DNA of 40,109 bases from Gemmatimonadota bacterium (lineage in GTDB: Bacteria; Gemmatimonadota; Gemmatimonadetes; Longimicrobiales; Gaopeijiaceae), in assembly GCA_003248075.1 (NCBI GenBank), contig QJYK01000054.1, positions 1-40,109 on the forward strand, read 5' to 3'. The notes below the pieces were generated by a model, which was not told the origin of the DNA, ran no database searches, and saw only the letters and a list, made by a program, of their open reading frames with translations. A program made the translations under genes and the position numbers. How positions within the stretch are numbered: position 1 is the first letter of the stretch; each line of letters starts with the position of its first letter. Of this stretch, positions 1-29,814 are shown in pieces.

Positions 1-35
1 TCCGTCGCCTCCGGGTCGGACCACCGTCAGCGTGA
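1..35 (+). CDS. possible 3' end of an upstream gene (partial)
   Basis: One frame is open from the window edge and closes with TGA at 33-35, encoding a tail ending RRLRVGPPSA. The stop overlaps the GTG start of glcD in the same GTGA arrangement used at the next two junctions of this operon (1447-1450 and 2682-2685). That makes it plausible that an upstream gene is translationally coupled to glcD. Ten codons cannot identify a protein, and the other two frames are also open here, so this rests on overlap geometry only. Confidence 0.3.
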   Translation, partial: RRLRVGPPSA

Positions 36-1450
36 CTCCACGACTCCCCCAGGCCCTCGAGCGCCGGCTCGGCGAGCTGGTCGGGATCGGCCACGTCATC
101 ACCGACCCCGACCGACTCATCGTGTACGAGTCCGACGGGCTCACGGCGTATCGCTGGCCCCCGCGGGCGGTCGTGCTTCCCGCGAGCACCGAGCAGGTCG
201 CGGCCGTTCTCGAGCTCCTGCATGCGGAGGGGATCCCGATCGTGCCCAGAGGCGCGGGCACGGGGCTGTCCGGAGGGGCGCTCGCACCGGAGCTCGCCGT
301 GATCGTGGGCACGGCCCGAATGTCCCGGATCCTCTCCGTCGATCCCGAGAACCGGCTCGCACGCCTCCAGCCGGGCGTTGTCAACGCACGGCTGAGCGAA
401 GCGGCGCGCCCCTACGGCCTCTACTACGCACCCGACCCGTCGTCCCAGACGGCCTGCACGATCGGCGGGAACGTGGCCGAGAATTCCGGCGGCCCCCACT
501 GCCTGAAGTACGGGGTCACGTCGCGCTACGTCACGGGCCTGACCGTGGTGCTCGCGGACGGACGCGTGGTCGAGCTCGGAGGGGCTGCCCGGGAGCCGTG
601 CGGAAGCCTCGATCTGGTGGGGCTCTTCGTCGGCTCCGAAGGGTGCTTCGGAATCGCCACGGAGATCGAGGTGAGGCTGCTCCCCCTTCCAGAGGCGGTG
701 CGTACCCTGCTGGTTATCTTCGACGACCTCGAGGACGCCGGCCGGGCGGTGACCGCCATCGTCGGAGCCGGCCTGCTTCCCGCCGCGCTGGAGATCATGG
801 ACCAGGCGTGCATCGAGGCCGTCGAGGCATCGGCCTTTCCCGCCGGGTTGCCGACCGACGCGGGGGCTGCCCTGGTCATCGAGTTCGACGGCACAGAGGT
901 CGGCCTCGACGGCGACGCAGCGCGTGCCGAGGCCCTCTGTCTGGCTGCCGGGGCGCGGGAGGTGAGGAGCGCGTCCGACACCCGGGAGCGCGAGGCGCTC
1001 TGGAAGGGGCGCAAGAAGGCGTTCGGCGCCTTCGGGCGGCTGGCTCCGGACCTGGTGGTGCAGGACGCCACCGTGCCCCGCACGAAGCTGCCCGAAGTGC
1101 TGCGGCGGATCCGCGAGATCGGGGAGCGCCGAGGCCTGACCGTGGCGAACGTGTTTCACGCCGGGGATGGCAACCTGCACCCGAACCTCCTGTTCGATCG
1201 CAAGGACCCCGAACTGCTCGCGCGGGTGGAGGCAGCGTCGGAGGAGATCATGGCTGCCTGCGTCGCCGTCGGCGGAACGATCACCGGCGAGCATGGTGTC
1301 GGGGTGGACAAGCGGAAGTACATGCACCTCGTCCACGGCCCGGACGAGCTGGCGGCCATGGCTGCCGCCAAACGCGCCTTCGACCCGCAGGGCCTCCTGA
1401 ATCCGGGAAAGGTCCTGCCGGACGTGGAGCCGGAAGGGGAGACAGCGTGA
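32..1450 (+). CDS. glcD: glycolate oxidase / D-2-hydroxyacid dehydrogenase FAD subunit GlcD
   Basis: This is the FAD-binding catalytic subunit that oxidises glycolate or another D-2-hydroxy acid to the 2-oxo acid. It has 472 aa, close to the roughly 500 of E. coli GlcD. The N-terminal half is a PCMH-type FAD domain, with VPRGAGTGLSGGA around residue 77 and CTIGGNVAENSGGPHCLKYG around residue 143. The C-terminal half is an FAD-oxidase C domain with NVFHAGDGNLHPN and the typical GGTITGEHGVGVDKRKYM near residue 410-430. The GTG at 32 is chosen because it overlaps the preceding TGA and gives a normal N-terminus. glcE follows with a GTGA overlap, and glcF lies two genes on, so the three-subunit enzyme is complete. 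The exact substrate (glycolate, D-lactate or other) cannot be read from the sequence. Confidence 0.93.
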   Translation: MTPRLPQALERRLGELVGIGHVITDPDRLIVYESDGLTAYRWPPRAVVLPASTEQVAAVLELLHAEGIPIVPRGAGTGLSGGALAPELAVIVGTARMSRILSVDPENRLARLQPGVVNARLSEAARPYGLYYAPDPSSQTACTIGGNVAENSGGPHCLKYGVTSRYVTGLTVVLADGRVVELGGAAREPCGSLDLVGLFVGSEGCFGIATEIEVRLLPLPEAVRTLLVIFDDLEDAGRAVTAIVGAGLLPAALEIMDQACIEAVEASAFPAGLPTDAGAALVIEFDGTEVGLDGDAARAEALCLAAGAREVRSASDTREREALWKGRKKAFGAFGRLAPDLVVQDATVPRTKLPEVLRRIREIGERRGLTVANVFHAGDGNLHPNLLFDRKDPELLARVEAASEEIMAACVAVGGTITGEHGVGVDKRKYMHLVHGPDELAAMAAAKRAFDPQGLLNPGKVLPDVEPEGETA

Positions 1451-2685
1451 GCGACGCCGGCGCCTTGTCGTCGTCGTTGCGGGACGCCGGCATCGCCCTA
1501 AGGGAGGACGTTCGCGGCGTCGCGGTCGGAGACGCGGCACCCGATTGCGTGGCCCTCCCGGGGTCGATCCAGGAGGTCGTGACCGTTCTGGCGCTGGCCC
1601 GCGCGTCGCGACGGGCGGTGCTTCCCCTGGGAAACGGCACCGAGGCGGCGTGCGAACCGCCGGTCCATCCCTTCGTCGTCCTGGGCACGGGACTCCTCAG
1701 GGGCATCGAGGCCTACGAGCCTGCCGACCTGACGCTGACCGCCCGAGCCGGGACCTCGATTCCGGAGCTGGCCTCGGCCACCGCGGACCACGGGCAGTGG
1801 CTCCCGTTCGACCCCCCGCGGCTGGCGCACCGGACCTTCGGAGGCCTGGTGGCGGCGGGCACGTCGGGCCCCCTGTCCACCGCGTTCGGCGCGGTGAGGG
1901 ATCACGTGCTCGGCCTAACCCTGGTCACGGGTGACGGACGAACCCTCCGCCTGGGCGGACGGGTGATGAAGAACGTGGCGGGCTTCGACCTGGTGCGAGC
2001 GGTCGTCGGGAGCCGGGGCAAGCTGGGGGTCATCGTCTCGGCCACCGTGCGGGTGTTTCCGAGACCGGAGCTGGATCGGGTCACGACGGTCGGGGCGGCG
2101 TCGGCGTCGGAGCTCATGCCACTGGCGCGGCGGGTCGCAACGGCGAGCGTCGTGCCGGCCGGCGCCATCGTCATCGAGCGCCCGGGTCCGGGGGGACGCT
2201 CCGCCGAATTGCTGGTCCGGGTGCTCGGGGCGGCGGCGGCCGTCGAGGTGGAGGAGCGGAAGCTCCTGGGCGATGAGCTCGGCTCCGCCCGGAGCGTTTC
2301 CGGCCCGGAGGCCGAGTCCCTCCTGGCCGCCGCCGGGGAGGCGCCGATGAGCGGGGACATCGTTTTGCGCGCGTCGGCGTTGCCCTCACGGCTGCCGGAG
2401 GCCGTGGAGGAGCTCCGTCAGGCCCTGCCTGACCCCACTCTGGTGGCCGACGCGCTGACGGGGCGCGTGTTGGCCGGGGCGACGGGATCCGTGGACGTTC
2501 CGGCCCTGTCCGCGTTGCGCCGACGCCTCCTCGACTGGGGGGGCGGCCTCGCGGTGGCCCGGGCACCGGCAGGGGTGGAGAGAGGGCTCGGTCCGCCCCC
2601 GACCACCGCGGCGGGTAGCATCGAGCTCGCGTTGCGCTCGAGCTTCGACCCCTTCGGGACCCTGGACCCCGGGAGCCCGGTGTGA
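1447..2685 (+). CDS. glcE: glycolate oxidase subunit GlcE (FAD-binding)
   Basis: This is the second FAD-binding subunit of the GlcDEF complex. It has 412 aa, somewhat longer than E. coli GlcE (about 350). It carries a single PCMH-type FAD domain: LPGSIQEVVTVLALA near residue 38, VLPLGNGTEAA near 58, then FGGLVAAGTSGPLSTAFGAV, and GRVMKNVAGFDLVRAVVGS around residue 175. This last stretch is highly characteristic of GlcE. The C-terminal part is divergent and has no GlcD-type oxidase domain. The GTG start at 1447 overlaps the glcD stop, and the gene's own TGA overlaps the GTG of the aldehyde dehydrogenase, which implies translational coupling on both sides. In known systems GlcE is needed for activity with GlcD and GlcF. 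Confidence 0.9.
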   Translation: MSDAGALSSSLRDAGIALREDVRGVAVGDAAPDCVALPGSIQEVVTVLALARASRRAVLPLGNGTEAACEPPVHPFVVLGTGLLRGIEAYEPADLTLTARAGTSIPELASATADHGQWLPFDPPRLAHRTFGGLVAAGTSGPLSTAFGAVRDHVLGLTLVTGDGRTLRLGGRVMKNVAGFDLVRAVVGSRGKLGVIVSATVRVFPRPELDRVTTVGAASASELMPLARRVATASVVPAGAIVIERPGPGGRSAELLVRVLGAAAAVEVEERKLLGDELGSARSVSGPEAESLLAAAGEAPMSGDIVLRASALPSRLPEAVEELRQALPDPTLVADALTGRVLAGATGSVDVPALSALRRRLLDWGGGLAVARAPAGVERGLGPPPTTAAGSIELALRSSFDPFGTLDPGSPV

Positions 2686-4196
2686 GCCTGAGCGAGTCTC
2701 CGACCTCCGTCGCGCCCAGGGCTTCGCGGGCGCAAGCAGGGGACCCGGAGGGTATCCGCACGGCCGTCGACGCTGCTCGGGCGGCTCAGGAGTCTTGGGC
2801 CGCGCGGAGTGTCCGCGAGCGTGTCCGGATCATGGGTAGGCTGGCACGCGTGCTCCACGCTCACTCTGACCGGATCGAACGAACGATCCGTGCGGAGACC
2901 GGCAAGCCCCGCCCGGAGGCTCTGGCCGAAATCCTGGTCTCGGTGGACCTGATTCGCTTCCATGGGCGCGTCGCAGGGCGGGTGCTCCGCGGACGCAGAG
3001 CCGGGGCGGGTTGGATGCTCGGTAAGTCTGCATGGGTGTTGCGAGAGCCCTGGGGGGTGGTCGGCTCCGTGACCGCGTGGAACTATCCGTTCATCCTGCC
3101 GATGGACACGGTGACGCCTGCGCTGCTGGCGGGGAACGGCGTGGTGCTGAAGCCCTCGGAGCTCACGCCGGCTTCCGCCGAGCTGATCCCCCAGCTCTGC
3201 TGCGAGGCGGGACTCACCGAGGGATTGGTGCAGGTCGTGACCGGAGGGGCCTCGACCGGGCGCGCGCTCGTGCGCTCCTCTGTGGATCGCCTCGTTTTCA
3301 CCGGGGGCAGCGACACTGGGCGCGCAGTCATGCGCGACGCCGCGGAGGGGCCGACGCCACTCACGCTCGAGCTGGGTGGAAAGGACGCCGCCATCGTGCT
3401 CGAAGACGCTGACCTGGAGCGCGCCGCACGCGGGATCGTCTTCGGCGGCTTCTTCAATGCCGGCCAGACGTGCCTGTCGGTCGAGCGTGTTTACGTAGAC
3501 GAGCACGTGTATGATGCGTTCGTCGCGAAGGTCACGAGCCTGGTGTCCGAGCTGCGGGCGGGGGAGACCGAGAGCGCGGATGTGGGTCGCCTGATCTCCG
3601 AAGAGCAGTTGCACGTCCTGCAGCGACACGTGGACGAGGCCTTGGAGCGGGGAGCTCGTGCTCTCACCGGGGGCTCGGCCTCTTCCACCCGACCGGACGT
3701 CTGGCTGCCTACCGTCTTGGTCGATGTGGACGAGTCCATGGCCGTGGTCACCGAGGAGTCGTTCGGTCCGCTCCTGCCGATCATGCGGGTGACCGGCGAG
3801 GAGGAGGCGATCCGTCGCACGAACGCCACGCCGTACGGATTGTTCGCGAGCGTGTGGACCCGGGATCACAGACGTGGCGAGCGTGTGGCACGTCGCGTTC
3901 GGGCTGGAGGGGTCTCTGTGAACGATGTGCTGAGCCACTACGGGGCGCCGGGCCTACCGGTCGGTGGCGTGGGCTCGAGCGGGTTCGGCAGGCGCCGCGG
4001 CATCGAGGCGCTCGAGGAGATGACCCGCACCAAGACCGTCTTCGTGAGCCGGCTTCATCCGACCGCCGAGCCATGGTGGTTTCCGTATACGGCCCGCACC
4101 GAGCGCCTGTTCGAGGTCGCGATCGCCTGGCGAGCCCACGGGGGGCTGAAGGGGCTGGCAGCCGGCGCGCGGGCGCTATTGGCGCGAGGAAGTTGA
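2682..4196 (+). CDS. NAD(P)-dependent aldehyde dehydrogenase
   Basis: This is an aldehyde dehydrogenase superfamily enzyme of 504 aa, which oxidises an aldehyde to the acid with NAD(P)+. Visible signatures are the nucleotide-binding WNYPFILPMDTVTPALLAGN region near residue 130, FTGGSDTGRAV near 206, the general base in LELGGKD (Glu230), the catalytic cysteine in NAGQTCLSVERV (Cys264), and the ESFGPLLPIMRV block near 359. The last 50 or so residues form an unusual basic, aromatic tail (WWFPYTARTERLFEVAIAWR). It resembles class-3 or membrane-associated enzymes, so membrane association is possible. The gene sits between glcE and glcF, starting with GTG inside the glcE stop. That suggests it supplies or drains the same acid pool, for example glycolaldehyde or lactaldehyde to the hydroxy acid. 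The substrate is an inference from context only. Confidence 0.9.
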   Translation: MSLSESPTSVAPRASRAQAGDPEGIRTAVDAARAAQESWAARSVRERVRIMGRLARVLHAHSDRIERTIRAETGKPRPEALAEILVSVDLIRFHGRVAGRVLRGRRAGAGWMLGKSAWVLREPWGVVGSVTAWNYPFILPMDTVTPALLAGNGVVLKPSELTPASAELIPQLCCEAGLTEGLVQVVTGGASTGRALVRSSVDRLVFTGGSDTGRAVMRDAAEGPTPLTLELGGKDAAIVLEDADLERAARGIVFGGFFNAGQTCLSVERVYVDEHVYDAFVAKVTSLVSELRAGETESADVGRLISEEQLHVLQRHVDEALERGARALTGGSASSTRPDVWLPTVLVDVDESMAVVTEESFGPLLPIMRVTGEEEAIRRTNATPYGLFASVWTRDHRRGERVARRVRAGGVSVNDVLSHYGAPGLPVGGVGSSGFGRRRGIEALEEMTRTKTVFVSRLHPTAEPWWFPYTARTERLFEVAIAWRAHGGLKGLAAGARALLARGS

Positions 4197-4197
4197 G

Positions 4198-5517
4198 ATG
4201 GAGGCGAATCGAGCGGCGCGGCTCGAGTTCCAGGATGCGCTGGAGCGACAGAGGGAGGGACTGGCCCACTGCGTGCACTGTGGCTTCTGTCTGCCGGCCT
4301 GTCCGACATACAACCGTCTGGGGGACGAGAGCGACTCGCCTCGGGGGCGCCTGTACCTCATGCGTGCGGTCGTGGATGAACGGCTGGATCCCGCCACGTC
4401 TGCGTTCCAGGTGCACATCGATCGCTGCCTGGGGTGCCGAGCTTGCGAGCCGGTCTGCCCATCCGGTGTGGAGTACGGATCTCTCGTGGAGCTCGCGCGC
4501 GAGGTGTCGGCGAGCGCGCGGCCGCGCGCCCTGGTCCCGCGCGTGCTGCTCGGGGTGTTCGGATCGCAGCCGCTGCGCAGTGCCTTCTTCCTTGGCGGGA
4601 GAGCGCTCCGAGCCACCGGGATCGCCCGCGTCGTCGCGCGCCTGCCCCTCAGGCGCGGCCTCCTGGGTAGCGCCCGCCTCGGCCTCGCCATGCTGGCTGC
4701 CACGGCGCCGTGGCGTGCGCTGAGGCGCCTGGGCGGCGCCAGGTCGGCCGAGGGGATCGGACGGCCGGAGCCCCGCGGTAGGGTGGCCGTCCTGGAAGGC
4801 TGTGTCCAACAAGGGCTCTACGACCGGGTCAACGCGGCGACGGTACGTGTGCTCCAGGCCAATGGCTTCGAGGTCGTGGAGGTGTCCGGTCAATCATGCT
4901 GCGGCGCCCTGCACGCCCACGGGGGCGCCCTCGACCGGGCACGCGCCATGGCCCGCGCGAACATCGCGGCCTTCGAGCGGGTCCACGCCGAAGCCGTGGT
5001 GGTCAACGCAGCCGGCTGTGGGGCATCGATGAAGGAGTACGGGCACCTGCTCTCGCACGACGCGGACTGGGCGGAGCGCGCTGGTCGTTTTTCGGACAAG
5101 GTGCGCGATGTCTCGGAGCTCCTTGCGGCAGTAGGGCCACGTCGGGGGGCCGAGATCGCCTGCTCCGTGGCTGTGGACCACCCCTGCCACCTCCTTCATG
5201 CCCAGCGGATCGAACGGGCGCCGCTCGACGTCCTCGGTGCGGTGCCGGGCCTGGAGGTACGGGTCGTCTCGGGGGCCGCCGAGTGCTGCGGTGGGGCGGG
5301 GATCTACGGTATCACCCATCCGGAGCTGGGGGGCAGGATCGGGGCGGACAAGGTTGCAGCGGTGCGGGCGGCGAGGGCCGACGCCGTCGCGACGCCGAAC
5401 CCCGGCTGCATGATGCAGATCGGCGCTGGCCTGCTGACGGAGGGCGCGGAGGAGGGGGTCGTGCACCCGGTGGAGCTCCTGGACGAGAGCTACCGGCGGG
5501 CGGGGTACTACGGTTGA
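4198..5517 (+). CDS. glcF: glycolate oxidase iron-sulfur subunit GlcF
   Basis: This is the iron-sulfur electron-transfer subunit of GlcDEF, with 439 aa (E. coli about 407). Two ferredoxin-type 4Fe-4S motifs lie near the N-terminus: CVHCGFCLPACP (Cys25, 28, 31, 35) and CLGCRACEPVCP (Cys77, 80, 83, 87). Two cysteine-rich CCG domains follow, with GQSCCGALHAHGG near residue 233 and AECCGGAGIYG near residue 361. NPGCMMQI near the end completes the second site. It would pass electrons from the flavin subunits to the membrane quinone pool. It begins one base after the aldehyde dehydrogenase stop and ends in a TTGA overlap with the M20 gene, so it belongs to the same operon although separated from glcE. 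Confidence 0.93.
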   Translation: MEANRAARLEFQDALERQREGLAHCVHCGFCLPACPTYNRLGDESDSPRGRLYLMRAVVDERLDPATSAFQVHIDRCLGCRACEPVCPSGVEYGSLVELAREVSASARPRALVPRVLLGVFGSQPLRSAFFLGGRALRATGIARVVARLPLRRGLLGSARLGLAMLAATAPWRALRRLGGARSAEGIGRPEPRGRVAVLEGCVQQGLYDRVNAATVRVLQANGFEVVEVSGQSCCGALHAHGGALDRARAMARANIAAFERVHAEAVVVNAAGCGASMKEYGHLLSHDADWAERAGRFSDKVRDVSELLAAVGPRRGAEIACSVAVDHPCHLLHAQRIERAPLDVLGAVPGLEVRVVSGAAECCGGAGIYGITHPELGGRIGADKVAAVRAARADAVATPNPGCMMQIGAGLLTEGAEEGVVHPVELLDESYRRAGYYG

Positions 5518-6698
5518 CGCGCGCCCACGATTGGCCGCCGACCGACCTGGCACGGCGCATATCCAGCCACGTCCGATCCCTGCGCGGAGAGCTGCTCGAC
5601 CTAGTGGAGAGGCTGGCCGGGGTCGAGTCGCCCACCGACGCGCCCGAGACCCAGAGGGAGGTCCAGGCGATCTTGGAGGATGCCCTGGACCAGGAGGGAT
5701 TCCGCACGCGCCGCACCGTCGGGCGCGCCGTCGGTGGGTGCCTTCTCGCGGTGCCGCGCGAGCGGAGGCGAGCGCGGCCTCTGCAGGTGATCCTGGGGCA
5801 CGGCGATACGGTGTGGCCGACGGGGACCCTCGAATCCATGCCGATCCGTCGCGAGGACGGCAGGCTCTATGGCCCGGGAACGTTCGACATGAAGGCGGGA
5901 CTCGCCAACGCAGTGTTCGCGCTGCGCACGCTCCGCGAGCTGGGGTTGGATCCTCCGGCGGTGCCCGTCGTGTTCGTGAACTCCGACGAGGAGATCGGCA
6001 GTCCCGGGTCGCGACACCTCGTGGCGATGCTGGCCCGACGCGCTCGAAGGGTCTTCGTGTTGGAGCCGTCTTTCGGGCCCAGGGGCCTCCTCAAGACCGC
6101 GCGGAAAGGAGTCGGAGGCTACGAGATCGCGATTCGCGGCAAAGCCGCTCACGCGGGGCTCGACCCTCGCTCGGGGGCCAGCGCGATCCTGGAGCTGGGG
6201 AGGGTCATCGAGGCGCTCCACGCCCTCAACGACGACGCCAGGGGGACGACGGTGAACGTGGGGGTCGTGTCGGGTGGAACGCGATCCAACGTCGTCGCGG
6301 CCGAGGCGAGGGCGCAGGTGGATGTGCGCGTGCTCACGAGCGTAGACGCTGAGCGGATCGATGCGTCCATCCGAGGCCTCCGCGCCACGGTCCCCGGTGT
6401 GAGCGTCAGTGTACGTGCGGATCGTCGCGTCCCGCCCATGGAGCGCACTGCCCGCAACATTCACCTGTGGCGGCAGGCTGCGCAGGCGGCTGCGGCGCTC
6501 GGCATCGATCTGGGAGAGACCGCCGTGGGCGGAGGATCGGACGGAAACACCACGAGCCTGTTCACCGCGACGCTGGACGGACTCGGCGCCGTGGGAGACG
6601 GCGCGCACGCGGTGGACGAGCATGTGCTGATCGACGACACCGTCGACCGATGCGCGCTGCTCACGCTGCTCCTGATGGCACCCCTCGACGAGGCATAG
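5514..6698 (+). CDS. M20-family metallohydrolase (putative N-acyl/N-succinyl-amino-acid deacylase)
   Basis: This is a zinc-dependent M20 hydrolase of 394 aa, resembling carboxypeptidase G2 and ArgE/DapE deacylases. The metal and catalytic residues appear in order: HGDTV (His96, Asp98), FDMKAG (Asp125), NSDEEIGSPGS (catalytic Glu159, metal Glu160), a dimerisation-domain IRGKAAHAGLDP, and a C-terminal GAHAVDEHV (His365). The only start that fits is TTG at 5514, overlapping the glcF stop as TTGA. No later ATG or GTG precedes the conserved N-terminus. Its neighbours are a GNAT acyltransferase and an N-acylamino-acid-racemase-like enolase. In the Geobacillus D- to L-amino-acid pathway the M20 enzyme removes succinate from N-succinyl-L-amino acids, and I infer that role here. 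A generic peptidase or amidase is the alternative. Confidence 0.85.
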   Translation: MTRAHDWPPTDLARRISSHVRSLRGELLDLVERLAGVESPTDAPETQREVQAILEDALDQEGFRTRRTVGRAVGGCLLAVPRERRRARPLQVILGHGDTVWPTGTLESMPIRREDGRLYGPGTFDMKAGLANAVFALRTLRELGLDPPAVPVVFVNSDEEIGSPGSRHLVAMLARRARRVFVLEPSFGPRGLLKTARKGVGGYEIAIRGKAAHAGLDPRSGASAILELGRVIEALHALNDDARGTTVNVGVVSGGTRSNVVAAEARAQVDVRVLTSVDAERIDASIRGLRATVPGVSVSVRADRRVPPMERTARNIHLWRQAAQAAAALGIDLGETAVGGGSDGNTTSLFTATLDGLGAVGDGAHAVDEHVLIDDTVDRCALLTLLLMAPLDEA

Positions 6699-6701
6699 CT
6701 C

Positions 6702-7544
6702 GTGACGGACTACCGGATCCGGCCGTTCGAGACGGTCGGGGAGCTCAAGGAGTGCGTGCGGCTACAAGAGGAGACCTGGGGGCTGGGTTTCTCCGAGCGC
6801 GTGCCGCCCGCCATCCTCAAGGTGAGCCAGATCCTCGGTGGCGTCGCAGCCGGCGCGTACTCAGCCGACGGGACGCTGACCGGGTTCGTGTTCGGCATGA
6901 CCGGCCTGCGGGACGGCGAAGTCGTGCACTGGTCGGACATGCTGGCAGTCAGGGCGGAAGCTCGCGACGCCGGCCTCGGGGCGCGGCTCAAGGCGTATCA
7001 GCGCGAGGCCGTGCTCGGGCGCGGCGTCACGAAGATGCACTGGACGTTCGACCCGCTACAGTCGCGCAATGCCTACCTGAACTTCGCCAAGCTGGGCATC
7101 GTGGTGCGCGAGTACGTCCGCGACATGTACGGCGAGACGGACTCCCCGCTCCACCGAGGTATCGGCACCGACCGCTTCATCGCGCTCTGGCTTCTCGACC
7201 ACGAGCGGGTGATCGGTCGACTGCGGGGCGACGACGGGTCGCCGCTGCCCGGGCCGGCGCTCGAGGCCCCGTCCGCGCTGGGGGTGACCGACTCCGGCGG
7301 GTCGCATCCGGCCCCCGGCCCGCCGCGAGGGGATCTGGACACGCCCTGGGTTCGCGTCGCCATTCCGGCCGACGTCTCGGCGATCATGAACGCCTCGATG
7401 GACCTGGCGCTGGATTGGCGTCTCGCGACCCGTGAGGTGCTCACACGCTATCTGGACCGAGGCTACGAGGTGCGCGAGCTTCTGCGCGGTGACCGGGTCT
7501 CCCATTACCTCCTCCACTCCGACAGGCTGAACGCCGCGACATGA
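6702..7544 (+). CDS. GNAT-family N-acyltransferase (putative D-amino-acid N-succinyltransferase)
   Basis: This is a predicted GNAT acyltransferase (the COG3375 type) of 280 aa. The acyl-CoA fold is visible as HWSDMLAVRAEARDAGLG (beta-4 and the CoA pyrophosphate loop, with ARDAGLGARLKAYQR near residues 85-105), followed by MHWTFDPLQSRNAYLNFAKL and GIVVREYV. The C-terminal 100 residues are less conserved and Pro/Gly-rich. GTG at 6702 is three bases after the M20 stop. Its own stop shares ATGA with the racemase gene. Members of this family often neighbour OSBS/NSAR genes. In Geobacillus kaustophilus the equivalent protein succinylates D-amino acids. The acyl donor here is inferred, not seen. Confidence 0.8.
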   Translation: MTDYRIRPFETVGELKECVRLQEETWGLGFSERVPPAILKVSQILGGVAAGAYSADGTLTGFVFGMTGLRDGEVVHWSDMLAVRAEARDAGLGARLKAYQREAVLGRGVTKMHWTFDPLQSRNAYLNFAKLGIVVREYVRDMYGETDSPLHRGIGTDRFIALWLLDHERVIGRLRGDDGSPLPGPALEAPSALGVTDSGGSHPAPGPPRGDLDTPWVRVAIPADVSAIMNASMDLALDWRLATREVLTRYLDRGYEVRELLRGDRVSHYLLHSDRLNAAT

Positions 7545-8653
7545 GAATCGAACGTGCCGAGCTGCGCGAGATGCCACTTCGTCTGCGGGAGTACTTCGAG
7601 ATCAGCAGCGGGGGGAAGCAGGACCGCCGGATCCTGCTCTTGACGTTGACGGGCGATGGGATGGAAGGGTGGGGAGAGTGTGTGGTGGGCGAGGACCCCG
7701 GCTACTCGTCCGAGACTACCGAGACCGCCTGGCATGTGCTGACGGACTTCATCCTGCCCCGCATCGTCGGCCGCGATGCGGTGGGGCCCGAGGACGTCCT
7801 CACACCTGTATCCTGGATTCGTGGCCACCGCATGGCGAAGGCGTGTGTGGAGATGGCATCGTGGGACCTGGCAGCCCGCATGGACGGAGTCTCTCTGGCC
7901 CAGAAGCTCGGCGGCACGCGGACGCGGGTCCCGGTGGGGGTGAGCGTGGGCCTCCAGAAGAGCGACGCGCTGTTGCACGAGCAGGTCGCCCGCTACGTCG
8001 ACGCCGGCTACTCCAGGGTGAAGATCAAGATCAAGCCCGGGCGGGACGTGGAGATGCTCGCGGGCCTGCGAGAGCACTTCCCGGACGTTCCCCTCATGGC
8101 CGACGCGAACTCCGCGTACAGCCTTGCCGACGCGGATCGCCTGGAGAAGCTCGACGCGCTCGACCTCATGATGATCGAACAGCCGCTCTCCTACGACGAC
8201 TTTCTGGAGCACGCGCGTCTCCAGGATCGTCTTCGAACTCCGATCTGCCTCGACGAGTCCATCGAGTCGGTCGGCGACCTCCAGCTCGCGTTGGAGCTCG
8301 GCAGCTGTCGGATCGTGAACATCAAGCCAGGGCGGGTCGGCGGCCACGGAACGTCGCGGCGCCTCCACGACCTCATGAAGGATCGAGAACTGCCGGTATG
8401 GTGCGGAGGAATGCTCGAGTCCGGGATCGGACGGGCTCACAACGTGGCGCTCGCCTCGCTGGAGGGCTTCGTTCTTCCGGGGGACATTTCGGCGTCCCGC
8501 CGGTACTGGGAACGCGACGTGGTGAGTCCCGAGTTCGAGGTCGAGGACGGGCACATGTGCGTACCGGACGGCGTCGGGATCGGCGTGGAGCCGGATCTGG
8601 AGCGGATCGAGTCCCTTACCGTGCGACGAGCGCGCTTCGACGGCGGCGCCTGA
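7541..8653 (+). CDS. enolase-superfamily N-acylamino-acid racemase / o-succinylbenzoate synthase-like
   Basis: This is a mandelate-racemase/muconate-lactonising-type enzyme of 370 aa, in the NSAR/OSBS (NAAAR, MenC2) group. All active-site positions are present. The KxK acid/base is in RVKIKIKPG (Lys163). The metal ligands are Asp188 (MADANSAY), Glu213 (MIEQPL) and Asp238 (CLDESI). The second base is Lys262 (VNIKPGRVGG). WCGGMLESGIGRAHNVALAS and LPGDISAS also match the NAAAR pattern. No other menaquinone gene is in the window. The partners are an acyltransferase (ATGA overlap) and an M20 deacylase, so racemisation of N-succinyl-amino acids is the better call than OSBS. These enzymes are often promiscuous, so a menaquinone role cannot be excluded. 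Confidence 0.88.
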   Translation: MRIERAELREMPLRLREYFEISSGGKQDRRILLLTLTGDGMEGWGECVVGEDPGYSSETTETAWHVLTDFILPRIVGRDAVGPEDVLTPVSWIRGHRMAKACVEMASWDLAARMDGVSLAQKLGGTRTRVPVGVSVGLQKSDALLHEQVARYVDAGYSRVKIKIKPGRDVEMLAGLREHFPDVPLMADANSAYSLADADRLEKLDALDLMMIEQPLSYDDFLEHARLQDRLRTPICLDESIESVGDLQLALELGSCRIVNIKPGRVGGHGTSRRLHDLMKDRELPVWCGGMLESGIGRAHNVALASLEGFVLPGDISASRRYWERDVVSPEFEVEDGHMCVPDGVGIGVEPDLERIESLTVRRARFDGGA

Positions 8654-8678
8654 GCTGCCGAACCTCGAAGGGGCTCAG
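8650..8678. terminator. weak inverted repeat between convergent genes
   Basis: A 6-bp inverted repeat, CTGAGC at 8650-8655 and GCTCAG at 8673-8678, spans the 21-base gap between the racemase gene (+) and the DUF4390 gene (-). Each arm contains the stop codon of one gene. A bidirectional terminator would be sensible here. However, the 17-base loop and the lack of a T-run make it weak. Confidence 0.22.
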
Positions 8679-9346
8679 CGGGGCCGGGGATCGAAGACCT
8701 CGAAGGACTCCGTGCGGACCCTGAAGCGCCGCGCCGGGAGGCCGAGCATACGGACGAGGGCTCGCCGCACCCCCCTCCCGACGGCGGACTCCACGGGTCG
8801 CTCGCCTGCCACGGCCGGAGCCAGGTCCCCTCGGAGCCAGCGCTGAAGCTCCTCCAGGTCCGAAAGTGACAGGGTCTCCACCTCGACCTGACCCAGGTAG
8901 TAGTAGCGCCCGGCCTCGGCGGGGCTCAGGGGCATCGAGAATCGCTCACGGAGCGCGAGGCGCACGTCGGCGAGCGAATCCGCGATCATCTCGGTCACGG
9001 CGGAAGCGCCGGTGGACACCCGGTAACGAGCCTCCAAGGGGTCGTACACCACGCTCGCTCGCCACTCCGCCCTGCCCTTCTCGCTGTCGAAGAAGCCGTC
9101 CTTCCAGAGCTCGGCAACGATGCGGATACGCAGCGGGAGCCCCGAGTGCAGAGCTCGGGTCAACCCGGGCTCGTCGAAGAGATCCCCGATACGGATCTGC
9201 AACTCGCCGGACTCCGGTGCGGCGGACAACAGAAGCGGCGCCTCGCCCTGCCCGTGCAGAGCCGCGGGAGCGAGCAACGCAAGGCAGGGCCACAGCACCG
9301 CGATGGGGCGGGTCCTTCTCCGCGTGGGCGCCCTGTGCAGGCTCAC
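8675..9346 (-). CDS. DUF4390-family exported protein
   Basis: This 223-aa protein has a basic N-terminus and a hydrophobic signal segment (AVLWPCLALLAPAALHGQ, about residues 16-33), so it is exported. The rest fits the DUF4390 family, whose function is unknown. It contains alternating beta-strand segments such as LQIRIGDLFDEPGLTRALHSG, LPLRIRIVAELW and RASVVYDPLEARY. The start is GTG at 9346, just 16 bases after the stop of the upstream barrel protein, so the two are surely co-transcribed. DUF4390 genes often lie next to NtrY-like kinases and their regulators, and that is the case here two genes upstream. A periplasmic role linked to the outer-membrane protein is an inference. Confidence 0.8.
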   Translation of the reverse strand: MSLHRAPTRRRTRPIAVLWPCLALLAPAALHGQGEAPLLLSAAPESGELQIRIGDLFDEPGLTRALHSGLPLRIRIVAELWKDGFFDSEKGRAEWRASVVYDPLEARYRVSTGASAVTEMIADSLADVRLALRERFSMPLSPAEAGRYYYLGQVEVETLSLSDLEELQRWLRGDLAPAVAGERPVESAVGRGVRRALVRMLGLPARRFRVRTESFEVFDPRPR

Positions 9347-9362
9347 GGGTTCCGACGCGCTC

Positions 9363-11081
9363 TCAGAAGCGATGATCGATGCGGAGGAAGAAATTCACAC
9401 CACGGTTGTCCCCGTTCAGCGGCTTCGCCCAGTAGAGGCCGAGGTCGCCGAAGTTCAGCCCGAGCCCCACATCCATGAACGTGCCCGTGTCGGACCGGGG
9501 GGAGCCCGGCTCGGAATCGGCCAGGGACCAGCCGCGCCCGGCGTCGAAGAACACCAGCCAGCGTGGGGTCAGGTCGATGACCGGGTACCAGTCCCAGCTG
9601 CTGTCCCACTCGTCGTCGGGTCCCAAGCCGAGGTCGAAGGCCAGGTCACCCCGGTACTCCGCCTGGAACAGGGCGATGCGGTCGCAACCGTAGGCGGCAT
9701 AGGTCGGCACCCGCGTGGGTGGGTCGTCGGCGCCCCGGAATACGGAAAAGCCGCTCGAGCGCGCGCCGCAGTCGATCGAGAGAGGACGGTACCCCGGGAG
9801 GGATCCCTCACCCCCCAGGGCGTGCTGGAATTGCGGGGGCAGCGGCTCACCGTCCAACGAGCCGCCGAGGATGCCCCGCAGGTGCAGATCGGACCCGGGA
9901 CCCAGGCGGGTGTGTCGGCGGAGGTCCACGAAGCCGCTCCGGAACCCGTTGCCGAGCTCCACCGCATCCGCTTCGACGGTCGCCGGCTCCCCCACCGGCG
10001 CGCTGTAGCCTGGCAGTGTCAGGTTTCCGCCCACACCGAGTCGCGATCGCATCTCCAGGTACCAACCGTCCGAGGGATCGTCGCGATCGTTGCGCCCGTC
10101 CAGCACGAGCTCGGTCGTGACGCTACGCAGGCGCCCCTCTCCGACGAGCGGCTGAGCCCTCCAGGGCTGCTCATTGCGCTTGAGCGTCCAGGGACTGCCC
10201 ACGGGTGCGAAGCTGTGTTCCTCGTCCTCGTAGGCGAGGCCGACCCTCACGCCGCCCTCCGGGTCGTCCCAGCGCACGAAGGCGGTGAAGCCTCGGCGGT
10301 CGTAGTAGTCCCGGTAGTCCCGGTGGAAGAGGAACGATGCGAGCGAGGCCTCGATGTCCCGGAGGCCCCAACGCTCCACGGGCTCCACGAGGGAATGGGC
10401 GGTCGCTCCGACGGAGAGGCGCCCATCGCCGAGGTACTGCTCGGCGCGGATGAAGTAGCCGGTCGCGTCCTCGCTGACCCGCAGCCCCGACTCGGAACGC
10501 CAGACGGCCAGGGCGTCGGCTCGGAACTGGTTCGGACCCTCACCTCGGAAGATCGGGCCGAGCATCACCGGAAGGCCTTCGACCCGGTTGTAGTTGCCCT
10601 CGCTTCTCAGAGTCAGTTGGACGCCCCGGCCTCCACCTCGCCGTCGACTCCAGCCGCGCTCGTCCACCTCGATGTCGTCCCCACGCCGGCGATAGGTGAG
10701 CGGCTCGCCGAACACGACGAGCTGTCCGTCGATGGTCCCCGTGTCGGTTCGCGCGCGTCCTCCCACCACGAGGACATCGCCCGTGACCCGTCCCGTTACC
10801 GTCAGGGTGAGGTCACCGTTCACGACCATCAGATCGCCCTCCAGGACGCCCGCCACCCGGAACGAGCCCCCCAGCACCGCCACGTTGCCCACGATGCGGC
10901 TTCCGCTCGGCACCTCCCCGCGACCATTGAATCGGAGGGTGCCCGGGTCGTTGAAGTATGCGACGATCTCGTCCGCGACGTCTCGCGGGAGATCCGCCTC
11001 TTCGATCCGGCGCTCCTGTGCCCCCAGGGGCACCGCGGCGAGGCCCGCCGCCAGCATCAGCCAACCCGTCGTCAACCGCAT
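9363..11081 (-). CDS. bactofilin-like beta-helix / Omp85-type outer-membrane barrel fusion protein
   Basis: This 572-aa exported protein starts at ATG 11081, with a strong GGAGGGAG ribosome site 6 bases upstream. A more distal in-frame start at 11156 lacks that support. A signal peptide ends LAAVPLGAQ (about residue 22). Residues of about 45-130 are short repeated beta-strand turns (GSRIVGNVAVLGGSFRVAG, GDLMVVNGDLTLTVTG, GDVLVVGGRA), as in bactofilin-like polymer-forming domains. From about residue 165 to the end the sequence is a beta-barrel with alternating aromatic strands, a surface-antigen (BamA/Omp85-like) pattern including GGEGSLPGYRPLS, and a C-terminal Phe (NFFLRIDHRF) suited to Bam insertion. 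It is followed by a DUF4390 gene and preceded by a two-component system. Its role is unknown. Export or anchoring at the outer membrane is my inference. Confidence 0.75.
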   Translation of the reverse strand: MRLTTGWLMLAAGLAAVPLGAQERRIEEADLPRDVADEIVAYFNDPGTLRFNGRGEVPSGSRIVGNVAVLGGSFRVAGVLEGDLMVVNGDLTLTVTGRVTGDVLVVGGRARTDTGTIDGQLVVFGEPLTYRRRGDDIEVDERGWSRRRGGGRGVQLTLRSEGNYNRVEGLPVMLGPIFRGEGPNQFRADALAVWRSESGLRVSEDATGYFIRAEQYLGDGRLSVGATAHSLVEPVERWGLRDIEASLASFLFHRDYRDYYDRRGFTAFVRWDDPEGGVRVGLAYEDEEHSFAPVGSPWTLKRNEQPWRAQPLVGEGRLRSVTTELVLDGRNDRDDPSDGWYLEMRSRLGVGGNLTLPGYSAPVGEPATVEADAVELGNGFRSGFVDLRRHTRLGPGSDLHLRGILGGSLDGEPLPPQFQHALGGEGSLPGYRPLSIDCGARSSGFSVFRGADDPPTRVPTYAAYGCDRIALFQAEYRGDLAFDLGLGPDDEWDSSWDWYPVIDLTPRWLVFFDAGRGWSLADSEPGSPRSDTGTFMDVGLGLNFGDLGLYWAKPLNGDNRGVNFFLRIDHRF

Positions 11082-11178
11082 GATCGTGCTCCCTCCGTTG
11101 GAGTCGCGAATCCTGGATGGTCGCGGAGGGGGCAGGGAACGTACCATGGGAAGCATCGCTAGTTATCTCCCAGTCGTA

Positions 11179-11197
11179 CTTTCACTTACGCTTTCAC
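11179..11197. repeat. CTTTCAC direct repeat, 12-bp period
   Basis: CTTTCAC occurs at 11179-11185 and again at 11191-11197 (GTGAAAG on the minus strand), about 100 bases upstream of the barrel-protein start. The one-turn spacing would suit a dimeric regulator. It could be chance. Confidence 0.3.
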
Positions 11198-11213
11198 GAC
11201 GGCCGGGCGGGAC

Positions 11214-11241
11214 AAGCGTACGAGCGTCCATTCGTACGTTT
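11214..11241. promoter_or_regulatory. inverted repeat upstream of the outer-membrane protein gene
   Basis: AAGCGTACGA (11214-11223) and TCGTACGTTT (11232-11241) are inverted copies matching at 9 of 10 positions, separated by 8 bases. They lie in the 205-base gap between the response-regulator gene and the barrel-protein gene, the largest gap in the window. The geometry suits a dimeric operator or an activator site about 130 bases upstream of the ATG. An NtrC-type regulator is encoded immediately upstream, so it is a natural candidate to bind here. No convincing -24/-12 promoter was found next to it, so this is a candidate only. Confidence 0.4.
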
Positions 11242-11286
11242 GGCCGTTGCGTTTGGACACGTGCGCAGATCCTGGACCCCGGGGGC

Positions 11287-12645
11287 TCATTCGCGAATCC
11301 CCAGTCTCTTCATGCGCCGGTAGAGGTTGGCGCGGTCCGTCTGGAGCCTGCGGCCGGCTTCCGCGACGTTACCACCCGCCGAATGGAGGGCCCCGGCGAT
11401 CAGCTCGCGCTCGTAGTCGTCGAGCCGCTTCCTCAGGTCACGGGCATCGTCGTCCGCGTACACGGGGGTGGCATCGGGTGGAGCGGGTCGGCGCGGCAGG
11501 ACCGAGGCCACGTCTCCCGGCTGTACCTCCGGCCCGGGCATCAGGATCGCCAGGCGCTCCACGATGTTCATCAGCTCACGCACGTTGCCGGGCCAGACGT
11601 ATCGCTGGAGGACATCCATGGCCTCCCTGGAGAACCGGGGCGGTCGAAGCCCCTGTCGCCGGCGCAGACGCCGGGCAGCGTGGTCGACGAGCAGGGGGAC
11701 GTCCTCGAGCCGCTCCCGGAGCGGGGGCATGCGGATCGGCACCACGTCGAGTCGGAAGAGCAGATCCTCCCTGAATCGACCCGCGTGCACCTCGTCGCGT
11801 AGGTCTCGGTTGGTCGCGGCGATCACGCGCACGTCCACCGGGATCGTGCCGCTTCCGCCCACACGCTCGACCTCGCCCGACTCGAGCGCCCGAAGCAGCT
11901 TCGCCTGGGCCTCCGAGCCCAGGTCCGCCACCTCGTCGAGGAAGAGTGTGCCCCCGTCGGCCAACTCGAATCGCCCACGTCTCCGCTCGGTCGCTCCGGT
12001 GAAGGCGCCCTTCTCGTGGCCGAACATCTCGCTTTCGACCAGGTCTTTGGGGATCGCCGCCGAGTTCACCCGGATGAACGGCGCGGCCTTCCTGGCCGAG
12101 AGGCCGTGAATGGCTGCGGCCACCAACTCCTTGCCCGTGCCGCTCTCACCGGTGATGAGCACGCGCGCGTCGCTGGGCGCGACCCGCCGGACCATCTCCC
12201 GGACACGGTTCATCGCGGCGGTCGCGCCGACCAGGTCGCCCTCGGGCCCGATCTCCTCGGTGAGCGTCCGGGTGAGGTCCCTGGCACGGCTGACCTCCAG
12301 AGCGCCCCGGAGGGTGACCAGGACCGTCTCGGGAGTGAGCGGCTTCTCGATGAAGTGGAAGGCGCCGCGTCGTGTGGCCTCCACGGCGTCCGAGAGGGTC
12401 GCCCGGCCGCTCATCATGACCACGGGCACTCCCGGGATCAGGTCATCGAGCGCCGGAAGCGCATCCAGGCCGCTCATTCCGGGAAGCATTAGATCGAGGA
12501 GCACGACCTCCGGCGGTGCCCTGCCCGCCTCCAGGATCCCCTCTTCGGCCGAGCCGGCCTCGCGCACCGAGTAGCCCTCCGCCTCCAGCAGGGCCCGCAG
12601 CATCCTGCGGATGTTGCCTTCGTCGTCGATGATCAGGACGTTCAT
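11287..12645 (-). CDS. NtrC-family sigma-54-dependent response regulator
   Basis: This is a three-domain transcription activator of 452 aa. The N-terminal receiver has the acidic pocket (Asp7, Asp8), phosphoacceptor Asp51 in VVLLDLMLPG, and the conserved Lys in FIEKPL. The central AAA+ domain has Walker A GESGTGKE (Lys172), the sigma-54-contacting loop GAFTGA, Walker B GGTLFLDEV and the arginine-rich WPGNVREL. The last 40 or so residues are a Fis-type helix-turn-helix (SAGGNVAEAGRRLQTDRANL). The ATG at 12645 has a GGGGGGAG ribosome site. It lies 69 bases downstream of the histidine-kinase gene, its probable cognate kinase. It should activate sigma-54 promoters. The adjacent barrel-protein operon is a plausible target. 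Confidence 0.95.
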   Translation of the reverse strand: MNVLIIDDEGNIRRMLRALLEAEGYSVREAGSAEEGILEAGRAPPEVVLLDLMLPGMSGLDALPALDDLIPGVPVVMMSGRATLSDAVEATRRGAFHFIEKPLTPETVLVTLRGALEVSRARDLTRTLTEEIGPEGDLVGATAAMNRVREMVRRVAPSDARVLITGESGTGKELVAAAIHGLSARKAAPFIRVNSAAIPKDLVESEMFGHEKGAFTGATERRRGRFELADGGTLFLDEVADLGSEAQAKLLRALESGEVERVGGSGTIPVDVRVIAATNRDLRDEVHAGRFREDLLFRLDVVPIRMPPLRERLEDVPLLVDHAARRLRRRQGLRPPRFSREAMDVLQRYVWPGNVRELMNIVERLAILMPGPEVQPGDVASVLPRRPAPPDATPVYADDDARDLRKRLDDYERELIAGALHSAGGNVAEAGRRLQTDRANLYRRMKRLGIRE

Positions 12646-12714
12646 GCCCGCTCCCCCCGAAGCCTGCCCCGCGCGAACGTGACGGTGTGTCGAAATGGCG
12701 CGCCTGGGAAGGGC

Positions 12715-13953
12715 CTACGCAAGAGAGCCGGCAGCGGTGTCGGACTCCGAAGGAACGTGGGCCGGAAGCCTGAACTCGAAGACCGCACCTCCGCGGCTCC
12801 GGTTCCGTGCCGACACGCTGCCGTCGTGGTGGAGGATCGTCTGGCGCACGATCGCGAGGCCGAGGCCGGTCCCGTGGTGCTTGGTCGTCACGTCGGGATT
12901 CCAGATGGTTTCGAGGAGTTCCTCCGGGATTCCAGGCCCCTCGTCCTCGACGCGGACCACGACCTCGTGTCCCGATCGCGACACGTGCACGTCCACCGAC
13001 CCCCCCGACTCCCCCTGGGCCTCGACCGCGTTCACGACGAGGTTGCGCAGCGCGCGCTCCAGGGCGTCGTAGTGGGCCATCACCGACGCCTCGCCGTCGG
13101 CGTGGACCGTGCACGGGACCGACTCGGACGCGTGCTGCCGCGCCAGCGACGTAGCCAGCTCGGCCACGTCGACCTGGGAGCGTGGTCCTTCGGGCATCCT
13201 TCCATATCGAGAGAAGGTCCGCGCCATTTCGTCGAGACGGCTGATCTCCTCACGGAGGATCTTCACGGCCTCGGCCTCGCCACCCCGGCTCTCCCGTGCG
13301 AGCGTAGCCGCCGCCATCCCCATCGCGGTGAGCGGGTTCTTGATCTCGTGAGCCACGCGACGCGCGAGCTCGGTCCACGAACGCATGCGCGCGTTCTCGA
13401 CCGCGCGTCGCCGCCCCTCCTCGATCTGATCTGCCATGACGCGGAGCGCGTCACGCAGCTTGGCCAGCTCCTCCACCGTATCCCTGCCGCGATCCGGAGG
13501 CAGTGGCTCCTCCCTCGCGATGCGCTCGGTCCATTCGGCGAGCTCGGCAACGGGCTCACCGAACCCGCGTGACAGCCGTCGCGCCGAGAGGAGCGCCAGT
13601 GCAGCGACCAGGACCCCCACGGCGATCGCGGCCAGCGGAAGCGCGCGCACGACGCGTTCCGCCACGAACGCGTACAGTCGCGACAGCCGCACCGAGCCGG
13701 ACAGGGCGTCGCGATGGCGCTCGGCGGCGCGCCGGATCTCGGGATCGTCGCGCCCGACGTCCTGGATCGCGTCGAGCAGCTCGATACCGGTCTCCGCCAC
13801 CGCGTCCCAGGCACCGAGCGTGCCCGAGCGCGTCCCGATCGCCCGAAGCGTCAGGACTCCCCCGGCAACGGCGATCGCCGCGGGAATCAGGACCACGGCG
13901 AGGATCGCGAGGAAGATGCGCCCCTGAAAGGTGCGGACGCGTGGGAGGAACAT
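12715..13953 (-). CDS. sensor histidine kinase (NtrY-like)
   Basis: This is a membrane-bound sensor kinase of 412 aa. Transmembrane segments lie at about 12-36 (FLAILAVVLIPAAIAVAGGV) and 105-124 (LPLAAIAVGVLVAALALL), enclosing a periplasmic region of about 70 residues. A HAMP-like linker follows (ARRLSRGFGEPVAELAEWTERI). The H-box is RRVAHEIKNPLTAMG with phosphorylatable His202. The ATPase domain shows NLVVNAVEA (N-box), DEGPGIPEEL (G1), HHGTGLGLAIVRQ and GGAVFEFRLP. The short sensor and the HEIKNPLTA box resemble NtrY. No PAS domain is obvious. It is encoded just before the NtrC-type regulator, and the two form a two-component pair. The signal it senses cannot be deduced. Confidence 0.92.
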   Translation of the reverse strand: MFLPRVRTFQGRIFLAILAVVLIPAAIAVAGGVLTLRAIGTRSGTLGAWDAVAETGIELLDAIQDVGRDDPEIRRAAERHRDALSGSVRLSRLYAFVAERVVRALPLAAIAVGVLVAALALLSARRLSRGFGEPVAELAEWTERIAREEPLPPDRGRDTVEELAKLRDALRVMADQIEEGRRRAVENARMRSWTELARRVAHEIKNPLTAMGMAAATLARESRGGEAEAVKILREEISRLDEMARTFSRYGRMPEGPRSQVDVAELATSLARQHASESVPCTVHADGEASVMAHYDALERALRNLVVNAVEAQGESGGSVDVHVSRSGHEVVVRVEDEGPGIPEELLETIWNPDVTTKHHGTGLGLAIVRQTILHHDGSVSARNRSRGGAVFEFRLPAHVPSESDTAAGSLA

Positions 13954-14032
13954 TGCGCGGAGATCCGGTCGTCGACGGATTTCGGGGCCGCTGGAAGGTA
14001 CCCGGAGGTCGAACGCGGGGGCAACGCCCGCC

Positions 14033-15790: not shown

Positions 15791-15828
15791 GGAAGGAGGC
15801 TCGTCGAGGACGCGGGCCCCCCGAATGC

Positions 15829-16752
15829 CTAGGCGGGACTCTCCAGCACCTCGAGCCACCCGAGAACGGCGGGGACGACATCGGTGAGCGAGCGCATGGT
15901 GCGGGGAAGCGCGCTGGCCGCCGGTCCCGTCACCATCCCGAGGGCGGGATTGAGCGTATGCTGCGAGGTGACGTCCTCCAGGTTGCCGTGATCGCTGACG
16001 ACGACCATGGATATGCCCGGATCCAGCGCGTCGACCAGGCCCCCGATGAAGCGGTCGACGCGCTCGAGCACGCGGACGGCTCCCTCCATCCCACCACGGT
16101 GGCCCGCCGTGTCCGTGGCGTAATAGGCATACAGCGTGAGCTCGACGCCGGATGCGACTCTCGCGAGGTTGGCCCCAGCCTCCCGCTCGGTGATCACCGG
16201 CAGCCAGTCGTGTCCCAGGTGCGTCCGCCAGCCGTCGTTGACGATCTCGCTCGCGACCGCACGGCCCTCCGCCAGCGCCTCCTCGTGCCGATCCAGGACG
16301 CCGGCGGCCTTCGCGGCCAGCGGAGGAGCCGAAACGCGCCGGCCGCCTCCGGGACCCGGCCACCCTTTGGGATACGCATTTGCGAAGGCCACCGAACGAC
16401 CTGCCCGGGCGGCTCGCACCAGGAGGTTCCGTTCCTCGACGAGCGGTCTCAAACCCACGGGCGTCCACGGGCCGAAGTGGGACCCATGGATGCGAGCGGC
16501 GTTCTCTCCGGTCAGGAGGGCGGCTTGGCCTGTGCCGCTCTGCGGGATGCCGGCCACACCGAGGGTCGCGTCCAGGGGCACGGTGACCGCGTTGCCACCC
16601 CCGACGGAGGGCTCTTCGAGGGTGGGCGTGTGCCCGCCCAGGAGGCCGGTCAGAACCGGCAGCTCGGCCCTCAGGAACGGATTGCTCTCAGGGTCTGCCG
16701 GGCCGATCCCCACCCCGTCCAGGAACACGAGGAGGACGGGGGCGCTGCTCAT
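15829..16752 (-). CDS. alkaline-phosphatase-superfamily metalloenzyme (phosphoglycerate-mutase-like)
   Basis: This 307-aa protein has the Metalloenzyme (PF01676-type) core found in cofactor-independent phosphoglycerate mutases, phosphopentomutases and related phosphatases. Seen here are the first metal Asp in LLVFLDGVGIG (residue about 12), a nucleophile-type segment GIPQSGTGQAALLTGENA, DTAGHRGG (metal Asp/His), and VVVSDHGNLEDV (Asp-His). It is much shorter than a canonical iPGM (about 510 aa) and lacks the large inserted phosphotransferase domain, so it is probably a phosphatase or another hydrolase of the superfamily. It sits directly upstream of the GspE-like gene. Its substrate is unknown. 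Confidence 0.8.
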   Translation of the reverse strand: MSSAPVLLVFLDGVGIGPADPESNPFLRAELPVLTGLLGGHTPTLEEPSVGGGNAVTVPLDATLGVAGIPQSGTGQAALLTGENAARIHGSHFGPWTPVGLRPLVEERNLLVRAARAGRSVAFANAYPKGWPGPGGGRRVSAPPLAAKAAGVLDRHEEALAEGRAVASEIVNDGWRTHLGHDWLPVITEREAGANLARVASGVELTLYAYYATDTAGHRGGMEGAVRVLERVDRFIGGLVDALDPGISMVVVSDHGNLEDVTSQHTLNPALGMVTGPAASALPRTMRSLTDVVPAVLGWLEVLESPA

Positions 16753-21679: not shown

Positions 21680-22036
21680 GTGAGCGCCCGCAAGGACGCG
21701 ATCTCCTTCGACGAATTCCTCCGCCTGGAGATCCTTGTCGGCACCGTCTTGTCCGCGGAGCCGTTTCCGGAAGCGAGGAAGCCGGCATTCAAGCTGGAGC
21801 TCGATTTCGGGGAGCCGGTCGGGGTGCTGCGGTCGTCGGCGCAGCTCACACGCCGCTACACCGCCGAAGGCCTCGTGGGAACGCGCGTCCTGGCGGTCGT
21901 GAACTTCCCGAAGAAGCGGATCGCGGGGTTCGCCAGCGAGTGCCTCGTGCTCGGGGTCGTGAACCCCGACGACCCGGCGGACATCGTGCTCGTTCGGCCG
22001 GATCACGCCGAGAGCGTCGGGTGGGAGCTCGGATGA
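21680..22036 (+). CDS. csaA: CsaA-type tRNA-binding-domain chaperone
   Basis: This 118-aa protein matches the CsaA family, a dimeric OB-fold (EMAP/tRNA-binding-like) protein described as an export-related chaperone in Bacillus. Characteristic segments are LRLEILVGTVLSAEPFPEAR, KLELDFGEPVGVLRSSAQLT, RRYTAEGLVG and VVNFPKKRIAGFASECLVLG, nearly the full length of the roughly 110-aa family. GTG at 21680 gives the family's normal N-terminus. An in-frame GTG at 21644 overlapping the Yip1 stop is possible. The stop shares ATGA with the TRAP permease gene, so the two are translationally coupled. Confidence 0.93.
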   Translation: MSARKDAISFDEFLRLEILVGTVLSAEPFPEARKPAFKLELDFGEPVGVLRSSAQLTRRYTAEGLVGTRVLAVVNFPKKRIAGFASECLVLGVVNPDDPADIVLVRPDHAESVGWELG

Positions 22037-27710: not shown

Positions 27711-27726
27711 CGCCCTGTCGCCGGAT

Positions 27727-27748: not shown

Positions 27749-27804
27749 GGACGTCCACTTGCGACGGCGTTCCGGGATCAGCATCTAGGTCGGGTGCCAT
27801 CAAC

Positions 27805-27815: not shown

Positions 27816-27817
27816 GC

Positions 27818-29809: not shown

Positions 29810-29814
29810 GCGAG

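Follow-up and report, generated by a model that had tools for sequence, protein, structure and literature searches.

The window analysed here, a stretch of 40,109 nucleotides, is the start of contig C7 (QJYK01000054.1) of a 5.6-Mb draft genome of a Gemmatimonadota bacterium of the family Gaopeijiaceae (96% completeness), and it begins with seven forward-strand genes that end in a member of the N-succinylamino-acid racemase/o-succinylbenzoate synthase (NSAR/OSBS) subfamily of the enolase superfamily. In order, these encode a glcD-like subunit of a 2-hydroxyacid dehydrogenase linked to flavin adenine dinucleotide (FAD) (positions 32-1450; PF01565 and PF02913, TIGR00387 474 bits), a glcE-like FAD-binding subunit (1447-2685, GTG start; PF01565, PRK11282 175 bits), an accessory aldehyde dehydrogenase (ALDH; 2682-4196, GTG start; PF00171 450 bits, best NCBIfam match PRK09407 at 443 bits against a cut-off of 521), a glcF-like iron-sulfur subunit (4198-5517, ATG start; CCG and Fer4 domains, PRK11274 307 bits), an M20 metallohydrolase of the carboxypeptidase G2 type (5514-6698, TTG start; PF01546 and PF07687), a GNAT-fold N-acyltransferase with a C-terminal extension (6702-7544, GTG start; AlphaFold and Foldseek) and the NSAR/OSBS-subfamily enzyme (7541-8653, ATG start; TIGR01928 342 bits). 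Gene families were assigned by Pfam, NCBIfam and PDB matches, the GNAT excepted. Successive junctions are a 4-base overlap (GTGA), a second one (GTGA), a gap of 1 base, a 4-base overlap (TTGA), a gap of 3 bases and a 4-base overlap (ATGA). The first-pass annotation had described seven genes without a real gap over 32-8653, joined by four 4-base stop/start overlaps and by junctions of 1 and 3 bases, and the reading frames bear this out to the base. The seven genes probably form one transcription unit. Since the glcD frame is open to the contig edge, the contig beginning at base 1 of the window, the window shows neither how far upstream the operon reaches nor precisely where glcD starts.

The last gene scores 341.8 bits against TIGR01928 (cut-off 200.65) and matches Thermus NAAAR 2zc8 with an E value of 4e-108. 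Apart from this score, it shares with the NSAR/OSBS subfamily the catalytic lysines (K161-x-K163 and K262) and the metal ligands (D188, E213 and D238), all invariant in a 16-member alignment, as well as the KPGR motif, the motifs having been surveyed across 81 sequences; it differs from known members in sitting in a glcDEF operon instead of among men genes or next to a TIGR01891 hydrolase. R265 is also present, the equivalent of Amycolatopsis R266, a residue linked to NSAR activity; this position was rejected as a discriminator between OSBS and NSAR because it is invariant in all aligned NSARs.

The genome's own men cluster reads menF-D-B-A-E without menC (locus L117), and a check of this cluster and those of nine relatives revealed no gene of the NSAR/OSBS type. 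In the whole genome, PF13378 matches only the window gene and enolase, so a second enolase-superfamily enzyme was rejected as MenC, and TIGR01927 matches only the window gene. The single-contig genomes G017, G069 and G070 each have one strong PF13378 match, the TIGR01928 gene, and a weak one of enolase length; the TIGR01928 gene lies in the glcDEF cluster in G017 and G070, and with M20 and GNAT but without glcDEF at the locus in G069. Across the family, menD exceeds its cut-off in 31 of 38 genomes, including the window's own, and mqnC in one of 38; the futalosine route was rejected for the window's genome, where no mqnC was found. With the menD route present and no other OSBS-type enzyme, the window gene must make o-succinylbenzoate (OSB), unless an unrelated OSBS exists. 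As the genome's only MenC candidate, it prevents the operon from being read simply as a D-amino-acid salvage route, and a role in making menaquinone accounts for its being kept no less well than D-amino-acid inversion does. There is precedent for this in the subfamily: the first 'N-acylamino acid racemase' later turned out to be an OSBS, and both reactions are catalysed by some members (PMC4215206), and the Bacillus subtilis gene of the same subfamily is menC (PMC4511580). The B. subtilis and Amycolatopsis MenC enzymes, once annotated as N-acylamino acid racemases, present the same annotation trap; however, it was the surrounding men genes that led to the identification of B. subtilis menC, whereas the window gene is far from the men cluster.

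We fetched 80 NSAR loci from the phylum and mapped their neighbours with the window's own proteins as queries; linkage was counted at loci with at least 7 kb of upstream flank, 52 in the window's family and 17 in other families, which come from draft genomes and are not phylogenetically independent. Of 249 genomes from the phylum, 248 have a relative that matches TIGR01928, and in 171 the match exceeds the cut-off. Within the family, glcF lies upstream of NSAR on the same strand at 45 of 52 loci (16 of 18 genera); glcD and glcE are found at 40 loci, which carry all of glcDEF, M20 at 41 and GNAT at 27. By contrast, neither glcD, glcE nor glcF was found near NSAR at any of the 17 loci of other families (Fisher p = 6e-11 for the family versus the rest of the phylum, on loci that are not independent). 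The full family order is M42 peptidase, GAF protein, metallo-beta-lactamase, glcD, glcE, ALDH, glcF, flavin reductase-like gene, M20, P-loop protein, GNAT, FAD protein and NSAR, of which the ALDH, flavin reductase-like, P-loop, GNAT and FAD genes are variably present; ALDH is found in the window and at seven related loci. A same-genus relative shares the window's order, interrupted by a contig end within GNAT (L146, L147), and upstream of its glcD L146 carries the M42 peptidase, GAF protein and metallo-beta-lactamase genes in this order. Overlaps of 4 bases prevail from glcD to NSAR (28 of 41 glcD/glcE, 29 of 36 glcE/glcF and 23 of 36 glcF/M20 junctions, counted by a script that favours a -4 start wherever one exists), and not at the M42/GAF or GAF/metallo-beta-lactamase junctions. 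Because the same gene order and 4-base overlaps recur across the family, the glcDEF-NSAR linkage is not due to chance.

Several loci depart from this order. In genus g5 (L037, L039, L041, L044, L050), glcF stands beside GNAT, the FAD gene and NSAR as an orphan iron-sulfur subunit, glcD and glcE both being absent from the locus, and in genus g6 glcDEF has moved away from or is missing at the NSAR locus. An FAD/NAD-binding oxidoreductase of ~415 aa lies between GNAT and NSAR at 17 loci (L034:9721-10974 and 16 others), mostly with a 4-base overlap with NSAR.

Outside the phylum the pairing is scarce. Named genomes were scanned as well, giving 80 loci, 15 from named Gemmatimonadota, eight of which carry glcDEF, and 65 from other phyla, where glc genes lie within ~4 kb of NSAR at only two, both in Acidobacteriota. 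These two (L158, L171) were rejected as independent glcDEF-NSAR operons, an opposite-strand rhomboid-like gene lying between the halves. The co-occurrence of the two halves, by which the first-pass annotation had proposed to judge its reading, is thus preserved within the family and rare beyond it, and, within the reach of these searches, close coupling to GlcDEF is a trait of the window's Gemmatimonadota family. Among the papers searched, none joined Gemmatimonadota, menaquinone and glycolate.

Two Gemmatimonadota clades are resolved in the NSAR tree: clade A (64 rows, support 92) is confined to the window's family and mostly glc-linked, whereas clade B (28 rows, support 100) is of the GNAT-NSAR-M20D type and extends across the class, with some members from the window's family. 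The sister family, which has the classic GNAT-NSAR-M20D trio, was sampled with 13 genomes (90-100% complete, chosen for a single TIGR01928 match); menD exceeded its cut-off in none and mqnC was found in all 13 (12 over cut-off), and the NSARs of this family form a clade separate from the glc-linked ones. The classic trio therefore occurs where OSBS is not needed, and where OSBS is needed the gene lies mostly beside glcDEF, although the split is not absolute. Genome G262 lacks menD and has a GNAT-NSAR pair inside a full glcDEF cluster, and G263, which lacks menD and has the futalosine route instead, keeps the GNAT-NSAR pair with a clade B copy. Such mixed patterns of menD, GNAT and clade are the trace that a promiscuous or bifunctional enzyme would be expected to leave.

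As in GlcDEF glycolate/D-lactate dehydrogenases, the three tightly packed subunits occur together with the expected domains, with ALDH between glcE and glcF in the window; unlike them, they stay below the NCBIfam glycolate-oxidase equivalog cut-offs (474 of 568 bits for GlcD, 175 of 284 for GlcE and 307 of 333 for GlcF), and no malate synthase was found in the genome. The glcD product is the only PF02913-type oxidase encoded there. MurQ, a source of D-lactate from N-acetylmuramic acid, is present, and this, together with the malate synthase not found, weakly favours D-lactate over growth on glycolate.

By sequence, the window GNAT gave no Pfam, NCBIfam or significant PDB match; its AlphaFold model (pLDDT 94.5) matches solved GNATs in Foldseek (2j8m, E 2e-8), and PF00583 (GNAT) is found in 26 of 35 homologues. 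The M20 enzyme has its best matches in PRK06133 and, among solved structures, carboxypeptidase G2 (E 5e-31); residues H96, D98, D125, E159, E160, E184, H213 and H365, which comprise all catalytic and metal positions, are invariant in 47 homologues, and kinship with carboxypeptidase G2 makes an N-acyl-L-glutamate-like substrate plausible. In the Geobacillus pathway, D-amino acids are inverted to L-forms by a GNAT, an NSAR and an M20D desuccinylase, and the last three window genes had been equated with this set. The equation holds for two of the three: GNAT (28-34% identity) and NSAR (~50%), which adjoin one another with the 4-base overlap, are homologous to the adjacent Bacillota pair, whereas the hydrolases beside GNAT-NSAR in the sister family and in Bacillota are of the TIGR01891 type (M20D) and the window M20 is not. 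The M20D-GNAT-NSAR arrangement is found at many Bacillota loci, for example in Cytobacillus firmus DS1, with a TIGR01891 hydrolase. The window further differs from the Geobacillus/Bacillota operon in having glcDEF and ALDH joined to the module and in a genome that uses the OSB route to menaquinone. Separately, in a member of Blastocatellia (Acidobacteriota; L186:3727-6023) NSAR is directly followed by a carboxypeptidase-G2-like M20 of 41% identity, an independent NSAR-M20 pairing.

GNAT is dispensable within the operon. It is absent in genomes G034, G132 and G258, all three of which have menD and retain the NSAR-type gene, and since several genera with glcDEF, M20 and NSAR either lack GNAT or have it unlinked, D-amino-acid succinylation is not a constant theme. 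In genera g2, g7 and g17 (L067-L091, for example L070:10375-10818), its usual place is taken by a Lys/Arg-rich protein of ~150 aa with no Pfam match; loss of GNAT was rejected as the reason for this protein in g2, where GNAT lies elsewhere in the three genomes searched. Several genera have a gene for a P-loop protein that separates M20 from GNAT (L034:7705-8736, with equivalents at L033, L036, L045, L049 and L056). Weak DUF1611 matches, below cut-off, occur in four of six members, and the predicted structure (pLDDT 71, moderate confidence) is similar to those of the SIMIBI P-loop NTPases HypB, FtsY and dethiobiotin synthetase. DUF1611 is the DgcN family; an assignment of the protein as DgcN was rejected and is a lead only, and the gene is possibly a second one for N-acylation. 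The DgcN-DgcA D-glutamate pathway is comparable in that N-acylation is followed by an enolase-superfamily racemase, and some relatives' clusters hold this DUF1611-like gene, but the DgcA equivalog score is 99 of 400 bits and the window operon holds no DgcN-like gene.

Beyond the operon, the window carries a convergent block (8675-16468), partly conserved beside the operon in relatives, that encodes a DUF4390 protein, an outer-membrane-like protein, a sigma-54-type response regulator, a histidine kinase and a type II/IV secretion ATPase. Further along lie a TRAP DctM transporter (21940-23928) and a DUF3471-bearing protein of the serine beta-lactamase fold, with an M1 peptidase next to it downstream (27650-31458).

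In light of these data, we propose, with a probability of about 0.6, that the last gene encodes the MenC of this lineage, probably an enzyme with both OSBS and NSAR activity, and that it is transcribed together with the genes for a 2-hydroxyacid dehydrogenase linked to quinone and for a variant acyl-amino-acid module. GlcDEF would be a membrane-linked FAD/iron-sulfur dehydrogenase that oxidises a 2-hydroxyacid (D-lactate most likely, or else glycolate) and hands the electrons on to menaquinone, and the NSAR/OSBS enzyme would supply the MenC step lacking in the menF-D-B-A-E cluster. The same enzyme probably also racemises N-acylamino acids produced by GNAT, from which the carboxypeptidase-G2-like M20 could then free the L-amino acid. 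MenC appears to be the more constrained role, with D-amino-acid inversion a plausible second one that would employ a non-canonical hydrolase. Several observations weigh against this proposal. The NSAR-type gene (contig C7) and the men cluster (contig C113) are not linked, and the invariance of R265 does not separate OSBS from NSAR roles. The family genomes G141, G249, G255 and G257 have menD and only clade B, and G260 (L133) and G261 (L129), both incomplete drafts, retain glcDEF-M20-NSAR although menD and GNAT both went undetected in them, a pattern explained by neither a MenC nor a GNAT-linked role. The synteny also reaches past the seven genes to the upstream M42, GAF and metallo-beta-lactamase genes, so that some of what is conserved may reflect nothing more than chromosomal inertia.

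A tentative extension, which we consider rather improbable, is that through one bifunctional MenC/NSAR enzyme, whose operon also encodes the quinone-reducing GlcDEF, a single transcript coordinates the use of D-configured cell-wall products with production of the quinone to which their electrons pass. Somewhat less likely still is the joint salvage of D-compounds put forward in the first-pass annotation, in which GNAT succinylates D-amino acids from cell-wall turnover, NSAR inverts them, M20 releases the L-forms and GlcDEF oxidises D-lactate, OSBS activity being incidental. Part of its basis stands, namely the conserved operon, MurQ, the one GlcD-type oxidase and the malate synthase not found, as well as the intact catalytic residues of M20 and the GNAT-NSAR pair kept in 12 of 18 family genera and across the class, even in G263, though as a clade B copy. 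However, genomes that carry menD have no other MenC, GNAT is absent or unlinked in genera g2, g3 and g14 and in G258 while glcDEF or M20 and NSAR remain, and M20 is not of the type of the GNAT-NSAR operons. Least likely is inherited synteny or operon packing of merely co-transcribed housekeeping functions with no shared pathway: conserved order does extend upstream and, in many loci, to DUF4390-BamA-sigma54 downstream, g5 and g6 break up the cluster and tight linkage is missing in other phyla, but the 4-base overlaps are concentrated between glcD and NSAR and the linkage is retained in 16 of 18 genera despite variation in the accessory genes inside it.

On the MenC reading, the menC that this menaquinone-making Gemmatimonadota lineage seemed to lack would lie in an operon for a hydroxyacid dehydrogenase; the case also cautions that such genes are not to be named racemases from neighbourhood alone. 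The phylum also offers a natural experiment on OSBS/NSAR evolution, with a futalosine family that has a dedicated GNAT-NSAR-M20D trio and a family on the OSB route in which the homologue has to serve as MenC, and the contrast between the two families makes the order in which OSBS and NSAR activities were gained and lost directly testable.

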